Below the pieces are notes generated by a model. That model made no database searches, was not told the DNA's origin, and saw nothing but the letters and a program-made list of their open reading frames with translations. Both the position numbers and the translations under genes were made by a program. This document shows, one piece after another, positions 52-4,398 of a DNA stretch of 61,604 nt (positions are counted from its first letter, which is position 1; every line of letters begins with the position of its first letter). The stretch is from Clostridiales bacterium (GTDB lineage: Bacteria; Bacillota; Clostridia; Peptostreptococcales; Anaerovoracaceae), in the NCBI GenBank assembly GCA_015058145.1, contig SVCX01000005.1, forward strand, positions 1 through 61,604, given 5' to 3'.

Positions 52-126
52 TGGCGGCCCCTGCAGGACTTGAACCTGCACCTCCGGAATCAGAATCCGG
101 CATCCTGCCGATTAGACGAAAGGGCT
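52..126 (-). tRNA. tRNA-Gln(CUG)
   Basis: The cloverleaf is complete: anticodon loop TTCTGAT between CCGGA and TCCGG gives CUG, the T loop is TTCAAGT, the discriminator is G and CCA is encoded. The first acceptor pair is A-C, a mismatch where glutamine tRNAs usually have a weak U-A pair. Confidence 0.92.
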
Positions 127-129
127 ATA

Positions 130-206
130 TGGTACGCCCTCGTGGATTTGAACCACGGACTCCCCGCGTATGAAACGGGTGCTCTGGCCAACTGAGCTAA
201 GGGCGC
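130..206 (-). tRNA. tRNA-Met(CAU), elongator type
   Basis: Loop TTCATAC between CCCGT and GCGGG gives CAU, the acceptor is GCGCCCT/AGGGCGT and CCA is encoded. It lacks the three G-C pairs of the initiator anticodon stem. An Ile2 tRNA with a lysidine-modified C cannot be excluded from sequence alone. Confidence 0.88.
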
Positions 207-209
207 ATA

Positions 210-284
210 TGGTGATACCAGCGAGAATCGAACTCAGCATTGCCGGAGTGAAAATCCGGTGTCCTACCTTTAGACGATGGTACC
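210..284 (-). tRNA. tRNA-Glu(UUC)
   Basis: The cloverleaf is complete with loop TTTTCAC (anticodon UUC), T loop TTCGATT, acceptor GGTACCA/TGGTATC, discriminator A and encoded CCA. Confidence 0.93.
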
Positions 285-286
285 GT

Positions 287-362
287 TGGCGGTCTCTGCA
301 GGAATCGAACCTGCAACCCTCACCTTAACAGGGTGCCGCTCTACCGATTGAGCTAAGAGACC
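287..362 (-). tRNA. tRNA-Asn(GUU)
   Basis: Loop CTGTTAA gives anticodon GUU. The acceptor GGTCTCT/AGAGACC is perfect, the discriminator is G and CCA is encoded. The outermost anticodon-stem pair is mismatched (G-A). It is the first tRNA downstream of the XRE regulator and is probably on the same transcript. Confidence 0.92.
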
Positions 363-372
363 GTGGATCGGC

Positions 373-714
373 TCAGAAATGAGCCGATATACTATTCAGT
401 TGTATGGTTATTCTTTGCCAATTGCTCATCATATCGAACTGACTGGCGATATCATCTGATGATTCCTCTTCGCACACAAGGATGTCGTCGACTGTTGTCC
501 CCAGCACTGCTGCCAGGATCACAAGATTGTCGACTGTCGGAAGGCAGCAGCCATTCTGCCATTTGTAAATCGCCTGAGGGTTGGTGAAACCCATGACTGC
601 CTGCAGATCCCTGACCGAGATCCCTGCTTTTACACGAAGTTTCGTGATGTTGCGCCCGGTAGCTGCTAGGTCGATGACCGGGACTTTTGTTACACCGACC
701 GGTTTCGTTGACAT
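373..714 (-). CDS. XRE-family helix-turn-helix regulator inside the tRNA array
   Basis: This 113-residue protein has an N-terminal XRE/Cro-type helix-turn-helix (about residues 18-75, with the core PQAIYKWQNG and PTVDNL) and an acidic tail with no recognisable domain. A DNA-binding role is known for the fold; the target is not visible. Start: AGGAGG lies 8 nt before the ATG. The gene at 1879-2112 is a clear paralogue with the same core, and both lie between tRNA genes on the same strand. A terminator-like hairpin ends directly at the ribosome binding site (728-765), which suggests that expression depends on read-through or on an alternative leader fold. Its target could be its own leader or promoter, but that is inference. 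Confidence 0.85.
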   Translation of the reverse strand: MSTKPVGVTKVPVIDLAATGRNITKLRVKAGISVRDLQAVMGFTNPQAIYKWQNGCCLPTVDNLVILAAVLGTTVDDILVCEEESSDDIASQFDMMSNWQRITIQLNSISAHF

Positions 715-727
715 TTCATTTTCCTCC

Positions 728-765
728 TAAAAAAATCCGCTTACCTCTGTATGAGACAAGCGAAT
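728..765 (-). terminator. Terminator-like hairpin fused to the Shine-Dalgarno of the XRE gene
   Basis: On the minus strand ATTCGCTT (765-758) pairs with AAGCGGAT (742-735), with inner TCT/AGA pairing. A run of seven T follows and runs straight into AGGAGG. It could end transcripts from the upstream tRNA genes, attenuate the regulator, or do both. Confidence 0.65.
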
Positions 766-793
766 CTGATTTCTGTATTGACTGTCTGCGGTT

Positions 794-931
794 CTACTCC
801 AGGTGCCGCATATCTATCTTACCTGTCTCATTTTTGCACGCAAAGCTCTGCTCCTGATCTATGTTCCAATCGAAGCTTCTCTGTTCCATAAAGCTATTCA
901 TAATTTGTGCAAAAATAGTTCTGTACAACAT
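794..931 (-). CDS. Possible 45-residue small protein or leader peptide
   Basis: An open frame on the minus strand begins MLYRTIFAQIMNSF and ends KIDMRHLE. An AAGGA motif lies 6 nt before the ATG. It sits between the tRNA array and the terminator-like hairpin of the XRE gene, so it could be a regulatory leader or a small protein of a mobile or regulatory cassette. I recognise no family. The rest of the 300-bp gap holds a short hairpin near 946-957 and AT-rich sequence without another convincing frame. Confidence 0.4.
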   Translation of the reverse strand: MLYRTIFAQIMNSFMEQRSFDWNIDQEQSFACKNETGKIDMRHLE

Positions 932-1017
932 TTCTTTTCCTTTCCGCCTTTCGGCTTTTTCTGTAATCAATTTACCACCTAGTTTTACCTCTGTATATTT
1001 ACCCTGTGGTTTAATAA

Positions 1018-1093
1018 TGGAGTGGGCAGCGGGATTCGAACCCGCACCTCGAGTTTGGTGGACTCATATGCTGCCATTAAACACCATGCCCAC
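1018..1093 (-). tRNA. Glycine-type tRNA with anticodon ACC and C33
   Basis: The body is almost identical to tRNA-Gly(UCC) at 1257-1333 (same anticodon stem, T arm and U discriminator, encoded CCA). The anticodon loop reads CCACCAA, so position 33 is C rather than the near-universal U and the anticodon is ACC. Bacteria normally read GGU with GCC, so an A34 glycine tRNA is unusual. It may be a diverged duplicate, a non-decoding tRNA or a true reader of GGU. Confidence 0.75.
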
Positions 1094-1094
1094 A

Positions 1095-1170
1095 TGGAGC
1101 CGGAGAAGGGACTTGAACCCCTAACCTGCTGATTACAAAACAGTCGCTCTACCAATTGCGCTACTCCGGC
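1095..1170 (-). tRNA. tRNA-Thr(UGU)
   Basis: Loop TTTGTAA gives UGU. The acceptor GCCGGAG/CTCCGGC is perfect, the discriminator is U and CCA is encoded. The base of the anticodon loop carries a U-U mismatch (31-39). Confidence 0.9.
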
Positions 1171-1176
1171 ACATAC

Positions 1177-1251
1177 TGGGTGGAAGGACGGGAATCGAAC
1201 CCGTGTCTCCGGAGCCACAATCCGGCGTTCTGCCACTGAACTACCAACCAC
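1177..1251 (-). tRNA. tRNA-His(GUG)
   Basis: Loop TTGTGGC gives GUG. The extra G at -1 opposite C73 that defines histidine tRNAs is encoded, as is CCA. The acceptor stem TGGTTGG/CCTTCCA has two adjacent U-U mismatches (4-69 and 5-68), which is odd for a working tRNA. Confidence 0.88.
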
Positions 1252-1256
1252 ATATT

Positions 1257-1333
1257 TGGAGTGGATAGCGGGATTCGAACCCGCACCCTGAGTTTGGAAG
1301 ACTCACATGCTAGCCGTTAAACACTACATCCAC
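1257..1333 (-). tRNA. tRNA-Gly(UCC)
   Basis: Loop CTTCCAA gives UCC. The D arm, the T loop TTCGAAT, U73 and encoded CCA are all regular. It is the canonical sister of the ACC tRNA at 1018-1093. Confidence 0.93.
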
Positions 1334-1337
1334 ATAC

Positions 1338-1415
1338 TGGTCCGAGTAGCAGGATTCGAACCTGCGGCCTCCTGAACCCAAATCAGGCGCTCTACACAAA
1401 CTGAGCTACACCCGG
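1338..1415 (-). tRNA. tRNA-Pro(UGG)
   Basis: Loop TTTGGGT between CCTGA and TCAGG gives UGG. The discriminator is A and CCA is encoded. The acceptor contains two G-U pairs. Confidence 0.93.
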
Positions 1416-1418
1416 ATA

Positions 1419-1492
1419 TGGAGACGACACCCGGAGTCGAACCGGGAACCGGGATTTTGCAGACCCCTGCCTTACCATTGGGCCATGCCGTC
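1419..1492 (-). tRNA. tRNA-Cys(GCA)
   Basis: Loop CTGCAAA gives GCA. U73, encoded CCA and the compact D arm are typical of cysteine tRNAs. Confidence 0.93.
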
Positions 1493-1501
1493 TCGTTACG
1501 A

Positions 1502-1578
1502 TGGTGCACCCTCTGGGATTCGAACCCAGACTTGGAGGATTTTAAGACCTCTATCTCTGCCAATTGGATTAAGGGTGC
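1502..1578 (-). tRNA. tRNA with leucine anticodon UAA but short variable loop
   Basis: Acceptor GCACCCT/AGGGTGC is perfect, the T loop is TTCGAAT, the discriminator is A and CCA is encoded. Loop CTTAAAA gives anticodon UAA (leucine UUA codons). Leucine tRNAs are class II with a long variable arm, yet only about five bases separate the anticodon and T stems here. Pair 31-39 is U-U. The amino acid identity is therefore uncertain. Confidence 0.75.
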
Positions 1579-1587
1579 ATCTCTCTG

Positions 1588-1675
1588 TGGCGGAGGGAGC
1601 AGGATTCGAACCCGCGAGGCTTGCGCCACAACAGATTTCAGGTCTGCGCCGTTATGACCACTTCGGTATCCCTCC
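1588..1675 (-). tRNA. tRNA-Ser(UGA)
   Basis: Loop CCTGAAA gives UGA. The long variable arm expected of class II tRNAs, G73 and encoded CCA are present. Confidence 0.93.
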
Positions 1676-1681
1676 GCATGT

Positions 1682-1769
1682 TGGTCGCAGGGGTGAGAAT
1701 CGAACTCACTGGGTCAAATCAGACAACGGATTTACAGTCCGCCCTCGCGCCGTACGAGACTACCCTGCG
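1682..1769 (-). tRNA. tRNA-Tyr(GUA)
   Basis: Loop CTGTAAA gives GUA. The long variable arm of bacterial tyrosine tRNAs is present, the acceptor CGCAGGG/CCCTGCG is perfect and CCA is encoded. Confidence 0.93.
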
Positions 1770-1773
1770 GTAT

Positions 1774-1849
1774 TGGTGATGAAGACTGGATTCGAACCAG
1801 CGACCCGCGGTTTAAAAGACCGCTACTCTACCAACTGAGTTACTTCACC
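1774..1849 (-). tRNA. tRNA-Lys(UUU)
   Basis: Loop CTTTTAA gives UUU, with A73 and encoded CCA. It is the first tRNA after the second XRE gene. A short hairpin (GTCCC/GGGAC, 1857-1869) separates it from that gene's stop codon. Confidence 0.93.
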
Positions 1850-2162: not shown

Positions 2163-2447
2163 CTCTATGTTTCTATTACATTACAGAGCGTACTATCATC
2201 TACTCCGCCCTCTTCCACTGCTTATCTTTTTTTGACATAACAAACAATCACTTCCGCCGCCATAGTTGAAGTGTGATCTATGTGTCTGTTCGATTGTCGG
2301 TAAGTATTGTCTGTTAAATATCATCTCTTAATGAAATCCTTTCACTTATTCTTTCCATATTAGGTATGATAACACGTTACCGTACCTACTGCATTAAACC
2401 TGTAGTCTAATCACATCTCGCCTGTTGATGCGTGTCGTGATGCGTAC
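2163..2447. other. Non-coding stretch between tRNA-like RNA and XRE gene
   Basis: No convincing gene is visible. It contains a 6-8 bp inverted repeat (CACTTC/GAAGTG, about 2248-2273), a direct repeat ACGCATCA on the minus strand near 2424-2444, and only very short open frames. It probably holds the leader or promoter of the XRE gene. Confidence 0.5.
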
Positions 2448-2557
2448 AAGGCGCGGTTTTTCGTGCATGCAGGATTCGAACCTGCCACCCCCTGGGTATG
2501 ACCCAGATATCCTCCACTAGGATTAATGCATTATTCTACCTTTGCTGTCCGCGCCTT
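2448..2557 (-). ncRNA. Y RNA-like (YrlA-type) RNA with tRNA-like module
   Basis: On the minus strand the segment opens with AAGGCGCGG and closes with CCGCGCCTT, a perfect 9-bp helix. Inside is a tRNA-shaped fold: short acceptor TGCAT/ATGCA, D arm ATCC-TAGTGGA-GGAT, anticodon-like arm TCTGG-GTCATAC-CCAGG, T arm GCAGG-TTCGAAT-CCTGC. There is no encoded CCA and the acceptor is only 5 bp, so it is not an ordinary tRNA. Bacterial Y RNAs of the YrlA type are known to be a Ro-binding helix plus a tRNA-mimicking module, usually encoded next to a Ro60 homologue, and a Ro/TROVE-like gene lies 90 bp upstream on the same strand. The 5' side of the joint carries an unpaired purine-rich stretch of about 17 nt. 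The alternative is a decayed tRNA-Met. Confidence 0.7.
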
Positions 2558-2647
2558 TTATCATCGTTTCAAGGCACTCGCTACGTGTTGCGGTTTAACA
2601 GACCGATCGTATGATTGCTGTGTGTGCCTTTCATATTGTACAGCTTT

Positions 2648-3997
2648 TTATGCTGCAATGCTCGCATATCGCTCGCTGCCGATGACCTCCATCATGAAGT
2701 CATATGGGTTGTAGTTCCCGGAAGCGACCATTGAGAACAGTCTCGGTGTGCATCCGGATACGAGCACGACGCCCTGTTCGTTCATGGTTACCGGAACCTG
2801 CTCGTTTCTGCTCTGTACGTTCCAGAACACTACTTGCGGCAAATTGTAGCCGAATTTGGTATACAACTGCTTCGCATACTCAAAGTTGGTGATATCTGCA
2901 CCATCGGCACAATAGTCGAACTCCATATCGGATATGATATACAAAGTCTCTGGCAGGTCTTCCTGCGGCAATTTGTTCGCTAATGCAACATCAAGCAAAA
3001 GTTCAAAAACTCTTTGTATATTCGTGTTGCTGATTTCGTTGAATCCCTCACAGTACACCGTCTTATCAACGATATCTTTTCCCTTGATCTCAACAAGCTG
3101 AGGAGATGAGGAGAAAGTGATGAAGTGATTCTTGAACGCACCGGTATTTCTTTCTGCGAAGTAGATTCCCAACGAAATCGCTACAGCTTCCGGAATCGGA
3201 GTTCCACCCCAATACATGGATCCTGACCCATCAACAACTGCCAGTGCATTTCTTCCGTCTGCGAAGTCTTCCAATGCGTTCCAGGAAATATTTATCGCTT
3301 TGCGCTGTTCTATAGTAAAGTTTCTACGGTCAAGGATTGGCGCAATGATGTCATATGGCATCAGCGTCTTCGCATTAAGCTTCGCTTCGCCCTTCTCAAC
3401 CTTGTTCAAAAACTCCATGTAACGTTCATTATCATTTCTGATGAACGCCTGTCTGTACTTGAACATGGCCTTGGACGGCTGCTTAGAATAGTCAAAGGAA
3501 TAATCCTTTTCACGCAGGTTGTTCTCAATAATCTTAATCTGCGCTCTAAGCTTGCTCAGTGCCTTTCTGTACTGAGCGTCAGTCATATTGAGTGCTCTGG
3601 CAACCTTCTTCGCCTTTCTGACTGTTTCCGCATTGGATGCGTTGACAGATGGCAGCCACTTGGCCAGTAATGAAACGTTGCCGCCGTTTTCGAGCGCCGT
3701 CAGATCAATTGACAACTGCTTTCTTATATATTCCAGAGCGCTTCCGTCGCACCCTGTATCTAAGAGCTCAACAACATCATCAAATCTACCGAATTCGGCG
3801 ATTTGTTCAATGTTCTTGACTACCGACTCTTTATTGAAACCAGCGAGCCAGTTCATGATGACACGGAATACTCTTCTTTCACCGAGTCCACCACGGATAT
3901 CCCTTGCATAAAACAGGATCTTCATGGCTAAATCCGGATTCTCGATATATGCCCTTGAAAAGCAGTTGATGATATTCTGGTCACATGTGTTTCTCAT
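2648..3997 (-). CDS. Ro60/TROVE-like RNA-binding protein (DUF2828 plus vWA), 5'-truncated
   Basis: The 449 residues comprise an alpha-helical repeat region of the DUF2828/TROVE type (signature FYARDIRGGLGERR) followed by a von Willebrand A domain with an intact MIDAS (DGSGSM, then ISDMEFD). Ro60 proteins are rings that bind misfolded RNAs and Y RNAs. Homology continues upstream of the first ATG: the in-frame codons 4054-3998 encode YRNTASDCLDLFARIGAM, a typical beginning for this family, but a TGA at 4055-4057 and unrelated sequence follow. The gene has therefore lost its true 5' end, or is now translated from the weakly placed ATG at 3997 (GGAG only 2 nt upstream). A Y RNA-like RNA follows downstream. 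Confidence 0.8.
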   Translation of the reverse strand: MRNTCDQNIINCFSRAYIENPDLAMKILFYARDIRGGLGERRVFRVIMNWLAGFNKESVVKNIEQIAEFGRFDDVVELLDTGCDGSALEYIRKQLSIDLTALENGGNVSLLAKWLPSVNASNAETVRKAKKVARALNMTDAQYRKALSKLRAQIKIIENNLREKDYSFDYSKQPSKAMFKYRQAFIRNDNERYMEFLNKVEKGEAKLNAKTLMPYDIIAPILDRRNFTIEQRKAINISWNALEDFADGRNALAVVDGSGSMYWGGTPIPEAVAISLGIYFAERNTGAFKNHFITFSSSPQLVEIKGKDIVDKTVYCEGFNEISNTNIQRVFELLLDVALANKLPQEDLPETLYIISDMEFDYCADGADITNFEYAKQLYTKFGYNLPQVVFWNVQSRNEQVPVTMNEQGVVLVSGCTPRLFSMVASGNYNPYDFMMEVIGSERYASIAA

Positions 3998-4398
3998 TGC
4001 TCCGATTCTTGCAAACAGGTCAAGACAATCAGACGCAGTGTTTCTGTAAACCGGTCAACAAATGGGTGTCTGAAGAATTTGTATATAAATTAGTGAAACA
4101 ATTATACAAAGAATACCATGTCATATACCATCATAGACCATTCTACTTGAGAAGTTCCAAAGGTGGTCAAATGTCATTTGATGTGTTCATAACAGGCCTA
4201 AATGTTGCGATTGAGTATCAAGGAAAACAACATTTCGAACCAGTTGATTTCTTTGGTGGTGTAGAAGCCTTTGAAAGCGTTCAAAAGCGAGATAGAGAAA
4301 AGGCGGAATTAAGTAAAGAACATGGGGTCAAGTTAGTGTATATCAATTATTGGGAGAATGTAACTGCTGAACTTATTCGTGAACGAGTCGAACAATAA
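3985..4398 (+). pseudogene. Truncated PD-(D/E)XK/Vsr-like nuclease domain
   Basis: Residues from about 25 onward resemble the C-terminal nuclease domain seen in many clostridial and phage proteins: a W-E-E helix, then FDVFI, IEYQGKQHFEPVDFFGG, a KRDREKAEL helix and KLVYINY. D, E and Q-x-K positions suit a Vsr/PD-(D/E)XK active site. The first 22 codons are merely the antisense of the Ro-like gene, so the natural N-terminus is missing and the junction lies near 4048-4060. No good ribosome binding site precedes 3985. The piece probably came with the rearrangement that truncated the Ro-like gene. Confidence 0.6.

Follow-up and report, generated by a model that had tools for sequence, protein, structure and literature searches.

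The stretch of DNA analysed here (the window), 61,604 nt of contig SVCX01000005.1 from a Clostridiales bacterium (assembly GCA_015058145.1), raises the question of what a protein of family DUF2828 has to do with the structured, partly tRNA-shaped RNAs encoded beside its gene. The locus is probably a Ro-Y-type ribonucleoprotein locus; its protein is divergent, and its RNA forms lie outside the Rfam family YrlA. An initial annotation, made from the letters alone, had proposed a Ro-Y system using a DUF2828 protein, and this proposal is strongly supported by the predicted Ro60 fold of the protein, by the recurrence of adjacent structured RNAs and by RtcB as a neighbour in bacteria. The analysis also yielded a conserved RNA module, its association with the gene and covariation within the RNAs.

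The Protein and Its Predicted Fold

The presence of a DUF2828/vWA gene was confirmed with Pfam, whose cut-off the window protein passes for both DUF2828 (E 6e-33) and DUF7788 (E 2e-41); judged by these profiles, it is a true DUF2828/DUF7788 protein. It also matches phrog_850 ("RNA-binding protein"; E 6.5e-130, in a collection entry with no curated cut-off), and phage annotation names the same protein family "Ro-like RNA binding protein." The AlphaFold model of the L047 protein, which is 98% identical to the window protein, matches Ro60/Rsr along almost the full chain, and the Ro60 arrangement of helical repeats plus vWA domain is thus found in the predicted model of a close relative. Residues D272, S274, S276, T341 and D373, which we take to be those of the vWA metal site (MIDAS), are unchanged across 25 sequences. 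The description of the protein as TROVE-like holds at the level of the predicted fold and fails at that of the sequence profile, through which no link to TROVE was obtained; in the window protein, Pfam TROVE (PF05731) has no match at E≤0.1. PADLOC gave no match for two family members, and a literature search for "DUF2828" returned only plant papers, as judged by title.

The gene is present as annotated, except that the loss of about 20 N-terminal codons had been missed. Similarity to L047 ends near 4048, an in-frame stop lies just beyond it near 4052, and the listed open reading frame has its earliest in-frame ATG at 3997. At ~4048-4054 the similarity is lost abruptly, between the truncated gene and a plus-strand reading frame (3985-4398) that is itself a fragment; this break may reflect a rearrangement or a joint made in assembly, and in the latter case the gene need not be broken.

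Two RNAs with a Common Module

The RNA described earlier, here RNA B (Table 1), was confirmed as a three-armed, tRNA-like fold that lacks CCA, has an acceptor of 5 bp and sits inside a perfect 9-bp closing helix; its folding z-score is -3.56, and 0/200 shuffles were equally stable. The Rfam tRNA model RF00005 aligns to 2464-2530 with 32.9 bits, above the cut-off of 29, and ARAGORN called no tRNA at RNA B. The acceptor runs for five base pairs and then passes into the closing helix; the 7-bp acceptor with a free 3' end that is typical of tRNAs was not found. The earlier picture of a single RNA by the gene was incomplete, since a second one, RNA A, carries the same module at 2571-2630 on the minus strand. 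Its folding, computed on 2568-2632, is less convincing (z -1.79; 8/200 shuffles as good). Both RNAs start with AAGGC and finish with GCCUUG, and in both the sequence ACAGCAA sits directly or two bases past the 5' helix strand. The module that they share is a helix of 7-9 bp joining the RNA ends, with ACAGCAA after its 5' strand.

Table 1. Features of the DUF2828 locus and its surroundings in the window.
Feature	Position	Strand	Basis
DUF2828-DUF7788 (vWA) Ro-like protein gene, 5'-truncated	2648..~4051	-	Pfam, phrog_850, predicted Ro60 fold of L047
Y-like RNA B: native-order tRNA mimic within closing helix, 110 nt	2448..2557	-	fold z, RF00005, R1
Closing helix of RNA B, 5' strand	2549..2557	-	fold
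Closing helix of RNA B, 3' strand	2448..2456	-	fold
ACAGCAA motif of RNA B	2542..2548	-	sequence reading; motif enrichment
tRNA-like domain of RNA B: 5-bp acceptor, D, anticodon and T arms	2464..2530	-	cmscan alignment
Y-like RNA A: 60-nt hairpin, same module, without tRNA domain	2571..2630	-	R1 (weak), fold
ACAGCAA motif of RNA A	2615..2621	-	sequence reading
Neighbouring array of 14 tRNA genes	52..1849	-	ARAGORN

Recurrence of the Module beside DUF2828 Genes

DUF2828 occurs in 7/100 genomes, the window's own included, and all seven belong to the 49 of the genus; homologues were also found in 680/50,697 phage records and 4/72,556 plasmids. For a survey of adjacent RNAs, such as the initial annotation had suggested, the best 80 of at least 583 bacterial loci and the best 80 of at least 505 viral loci were picked by protein alone, a sample of the closest relatives rather than a random one. 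In each set, no other 7-mer is present in the oriented flanks of as many loci as ACAGCAA (74/80 bacterial and 64/80 viral loci). When 7-mers found in at least 15 loci are ranked by enrichment over base composition, it leads in bacteria and, in viruses, holds sixth place after five T-arm-like 7-mers. An end helix of at least 7 bp accompanies 202/237 bacterial and 154/260 viral ACAGCAA motifs within 3 kb, against a background of 159/1232 and 132/1256 at random positions and 375/2314 at anagram 7-mers. Motif and helix together occur within 3 kb in 74/80 bacterial and 62/80 viral loci, a count that includes hairpin-type helices, for which the background is 7-10% of positions; with redundant flanks dropped, the figures are 55/59 and 58/71. 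The 5' helix strands are diverse, with 100 distinct ones among the 202 bacterial and 127 among the 154 viral helices. Of 204 bacterial modules, 198 are upstream of the gene, 145 at a distance of no more than 600 nt, and a locus may hold up to eight modules in bacteria and nine in viruses. The pairing of DUF2828 protein and RNA thus recurs in many other bacteria and many phages.

Inspection by eye of 23 phage and plasmid regions taken from match lists found at least one module in 16 and a weak one in L046; in L030, L036, L039, L040, L041 and L045, no convincing module was seen outside tRNAs. Jumbo phages lacking a convincing module beside DUF2828 have module-like sequences far off, near or inside tRNAs (L236, L231, L228). 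In Munch these lie at 290,488 and 298,383, compared with a gene at ~110 kb, and in D479 at 223,535, ~14 kb from the gene.

RNA Architectures and Covariation

Four shapes were found. The module may close a plain hairpin (a); it may carry a native-order tRNA attached via a shortened acceptor (b), as in the window, L015, L016, L020 and L026; it may carry a permuted tRNA with the T arm before the D arm, like the Rfam YrlA consensus (c), as in L027, L031, L035 and L043; or it may form a hairpin in the anticodon region of a tRNA (d), as in L021, other viral loci and, with ACUGCAA, phage B23. Anticodon-region inserts number 19/260 viral motifs, crudely counted with duplicate contigs left in; architecture counts are crude in general, e.g., an obvious tRNA mimic (L047 2827) was classed "noT." The anticodon region holds a hairpin and a sequence similar to ACNGCAA in two annotated phage tRNAs, namely the tRNA-Val of Aeromonas phage Aeh1 (L030 8121-8242, annotated as 122 nt) and the overlong tRNA-OTHER of Synechococcus phage B23 (L034 7800-7909).

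Covariation was assessed on 35 RNAs of the window type, i.e., the window RNA and 34 hand-picked from 104 candidates (84-118 nt), with permuted and irregular RNAs excluded. The alignment has 21 pairs, 17 of which show compensatory change, and 97.4% of its cells pair; covariation is 0.539, against 0.193 for shuffled (0/500) and no more than 0.144 for slid alignments. The anticodon stem, which was no criterion of selection, shows compensatory change at 5/5 pairs. Anticodon loops have seven bases in 32/35 RNAs, U33 is kept in 26 of these 32, and 17 different triplets occur; therefore, the window-type RNAs resemble tRNAs of many kinds.

The covariance model of this alignment, R1, gives RNA B 77.5 bits as a member of its own training set and RNA A a weak 26 bits. 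Below ~57 bits, R1 alone cannot tell mimics from tRNAs. It has 55 matches of at least 57 bits in 42/80 bacterial loci, and 13 of these 42 are among the 51 non-training loci (hand count). In the 80 viral loci, 31 matches were obtained at E 1e-7, the best with 74 bits and the lower ones within the tRNA range. Across 10 whole genomes, 9/9 matches of at least 58 bits lie at the DUF2828 locus (matched by hand; 3/9 are training RNAs), and two genomes are without a match at that level. The 49 genus genomes hold six matches of at least 57 bits, two in G008 and one each in G000, G027, G036 and G005. The first four genomes carry a DUF2828 gene, and the G005 contig stops just after the RNA, perhaps at the gene start. 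Three DUF2828-positive genomes (G012, G017 and G031) have no R1 match of at least 57 bits, and modules of other shapes are present in G017 and G031. Among the inspected genus matches of 49-56 bits, none has ACAGCAA and most are plainly tRNAs.

RtcB and Other Neighbours

RtcB is encoded near 52/80 bacterial loci, in 44 with its start within 221 nt downstream (hand count), and it lies within 2.5 kb downstream in 35 of the 61 bacterial loci having enough sequence. Annotated RNA ligases stand near the gene in phages Listeria CKA15 (RtcB and RNA ligase), Erwinia Kaldavass and Salmonella Munch. A WCX-like regulator occurs upstream in 35/80 bacterial and 0/80 viral loci, at 21.5 bits and thus under the Pfam cut-off of 23.9. 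Small HTH_3 proteins are encoded on the minus strand of the window at 373-714 and 1879-2112, between tRNAs and near DUF2828; similar coding sequence is readable in the flanks of L014 and L097.

Relation to Known Ro-Y Systems

The closest parallel is offered by the Rsr-YrlA ribonucleoproteins, which, in the available text on the Salmonella rsr-yrlBA-rtcBA operon, share with DUF2828 loci a Ro60-fold protein (predicted here), an adjacent tRNA-mimic RNA and RtcB in the operon (PMC7790460). Unlike Rsr, the protein here is by sequence DUF2828 and not TROVE. RNA B has the native D-anticodon-T order, an anticodon arm and a junction through the acceptor, whereas the Rfam YrlA consensus is permuted and lacks an anticodon arm; the module has ACAGCAA where that consensus has AUGC. 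The YrlA-like label of the initial annotation did not survive, as a search of the window RNA with RF02553 was empty at E≤10 and the tRNA order is native; YrlA membership is rejected on these grounds. Two mycobacteriophage sequences just downstream of DUF2828 genes reach 39.8 (JoeDirt) and 38.3 bits (Krypton555) with the YrlA model, and 0/10 phage records pass its cut-off of 69. Because the model also matches in 9/14 control genomes, such weak scores mean little. Two RF02553 matches under the cut-off in G000 (C59 76-220 and 819-941; 33.9 and 31.9 bits) are probably tRNA cross-hits, since the same search matches in 7/14 control genomes.

Among phages, "Ro-like RNA binding protein" and phrog_850 denote the same family, a comparison made by names; the sources, as far as available, gave no description of a shared RNA module. 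CKA15_055 of Listeria phage CKA15 belongs to the DUF2828 family, and the accessible text on this phage suggests very abundant non-coding RNAs near the gene as possible Y RNAs (PMC12282133). CKA15_059-061 (L024 4377-4928; record ~26.2-26.7 kb) were rejected as carriers of the module, as they resemble ROOL RNA rather than Y RNA (RF03087, 90.1 bits, E 2e-18, cut-off 99.1); the module RNAs of CKA15 are at ~25.38-25.55 kb of the record, adjoining CKA15_055. The Ro60 of Thermus phage phiLo (PDB 9l5y), compared by name and title, is entitled a TROVE domain-containing protein.

A more distant likeness concerns the Class I RNAs of dictyostelids, whose 11-nt motif we take to be CCUUACAGCAA. These letters fit the invariants T3, C6, C9, A10 and A11 that the available text gives for the motif after the 5' stem, along with a 6-bp end stem showing compensatory changes and RNA ends of AAG and CUGU (PMC7919456). 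Class I RNA (RF01414) and the module appear to have in common the end stem, a conserved motif after its 5' strand, the AAG start and a variable remainder. Class I RNAs end in CUGU, and both window RNAs have the form AAG...CUU followed by G or GU. Class I RNAs are eukaryotic, are reported in that text as unique to dictyostelids, and have as their known binder the RRM protein Rnp1A (PMC7919456). Over 19 DUF2828 phage records (3.2 Mb), RF01414 gave 25 matches at E≤1, the best with 26.9 bits and none over the cut-off of 41.5. Eleven of the 25 lie within 1.5 kb of the gene, or 1.8% of the sequence (binomial P 2e-13, from a hand count, with matches taken as independent and the 1.5 kb limit chosen afterwards). 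The model also matches in 7/14 control genomes, and it gave no row for window positions 2380-2640 at E≤10. The two RNA types may share an ancestor, or they may have converged on a single binding protein. A broader proposal is that phages, Clostridia and Dictyostelium (Class I) share one cross-kingdom "ACAGCAA end-stem" RNA family, the dedicated ligand of DUF2828 Ro-like proteins, whose portable module became attached to tRNAs by three or more routes (acceptor, permuted, anticodon region); we hold this as a tentative idea, leaning slightly against it.

Weighing the Alternatives

Several observations weigh against a Ro-Y system at this locus or in the family. A search of five family members, including L015 (on the same contig as L047), with TROVE PF05731 was empty at E≤10, in a test limited by the HMMER filters, which drop most matches above ~0.1. 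Motif and helix are missing within 3 kb from 6/80 bacterial and 18/80 viral loci. RtcB, sought with the same test as in bacteria, is present in the flanks of 0/80 viral loci, and it was not detected in the window's own metagenome-assembled genome, which is 80% complete and where an empty answer proves nothing. The window RNAs are downstream of the gene, as are only 6/204 bacterial modules, and the truncation of the window gene means that the copy found here may be inactive. For the covariation alignment, the closing helix was itself a selection criterion, and the T and D arm patterns were partly so. Finally, some occurrences of motif and helix arise by chance or are not specific. A TROVE contrast set (a match in 6/299 phylum genomes) provided six stretches of ~3.2 kb, in which both strands, coding sequence included, hold 7 ACAGCAA, 4 with a helix of at least 7 bp; one of them, at L211 157-203, is situated ~600 nt upstream of the TROVE frame and shows the AAG...CUU form. 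Read by eye, L211 157-330 resembles YrlA as a permuted tRNA closed by a separate 10-bp end helix, after which there is no ACAGCAA; the ACAGCAA stretch overlaps this RNA at its 5' side. R1 gave 8 matches at E≤1 in the six loci, the best with 40.9 bits and all within the range of tRNA cross-hits. Six loci are too few for this contrast to decide whether ACAGCAA is specific to DUF2828.

Three other explanations of the RNAs were considered. The prevalence of modules upstream of bacterial genes, mostly within 600 nt, would suit cis-acting leaders, with the protein binding modules in its own transcript and so controlling its own synthesis. This is unlikely given the large number of modules in some loci, the downstream position of the window pair and the module-like sequences far from the gene in jumbo phages such as Munch and D479; one may also argue that a leader would have no need of a whole tRNA fold. 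A reading of the tRNA-like RNAs as normal or degenerate tRNAs next to a vWA gene we consider highly improbable, even though the window RNA and others reach the RF00005 cut-off and U33 persists in most seven-base anticodon loops: the conserved outer helix with ACAGCAA, the shortened acceptor and, in the window RNA, the missing CCA argue otherwise, the same module closes plain hairpins and permuted tRNAs, and the arms covary. The anticodon-region modules of viral tRNAs (the crude count above; L021), the permuted forms and the adjoining RtcB of bacteria would fit intron-like or split tRNA precursors from which the module is excised and whose ends RtcB joins to give functional tRNAs. However, window-type RNAs are joined via the acceptor, so that excision leaves no tRNA ends, many modules close hairpins free of tRNA, and the viral set holding the anticodon inserts had no RtcB in its flanks; precursors of this kind are thus very unlikely.

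A Possible Role in RNA Surveillance and Repair

For a Ro-Y-type locus, RNA binding and all functions of the system are what we infer. What the DUF2828 protein, whose helical repeats and vWA domain are predicted to form a divergent version of the Ro60 fold, most likely binds in the adjacent RNAs is the module of end helix and ACAGCAA. The remainder of each RNA would serve as a variable arm, which in RNA B mimics a tRNA and keeps its anticodon arm whole. Such a mimic may bring tRNA-handling factors to the DUF2828 protein or, alternatively, may act as a decoy for tRNA-cutting nucleases. Roles in tRNA decay and as a nuclease decoy are raised for YrlA in the available text of PMC7790460. Either role of the mimic would fall within RNA surveillance and repair together with RtcB.

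If this reading is true, DUF2828, a family of unknown function in Pfam, would be assigned a specific RNA ligand as well as a part in RNA repair that experiments could test. Ro-Y systems would then be common in phages and gut Clostridia, and some predicted "tRNAs" would be mimics. For the Class I RNAs of social amoebas, which still lack an explanation, the module would also provide a lead.
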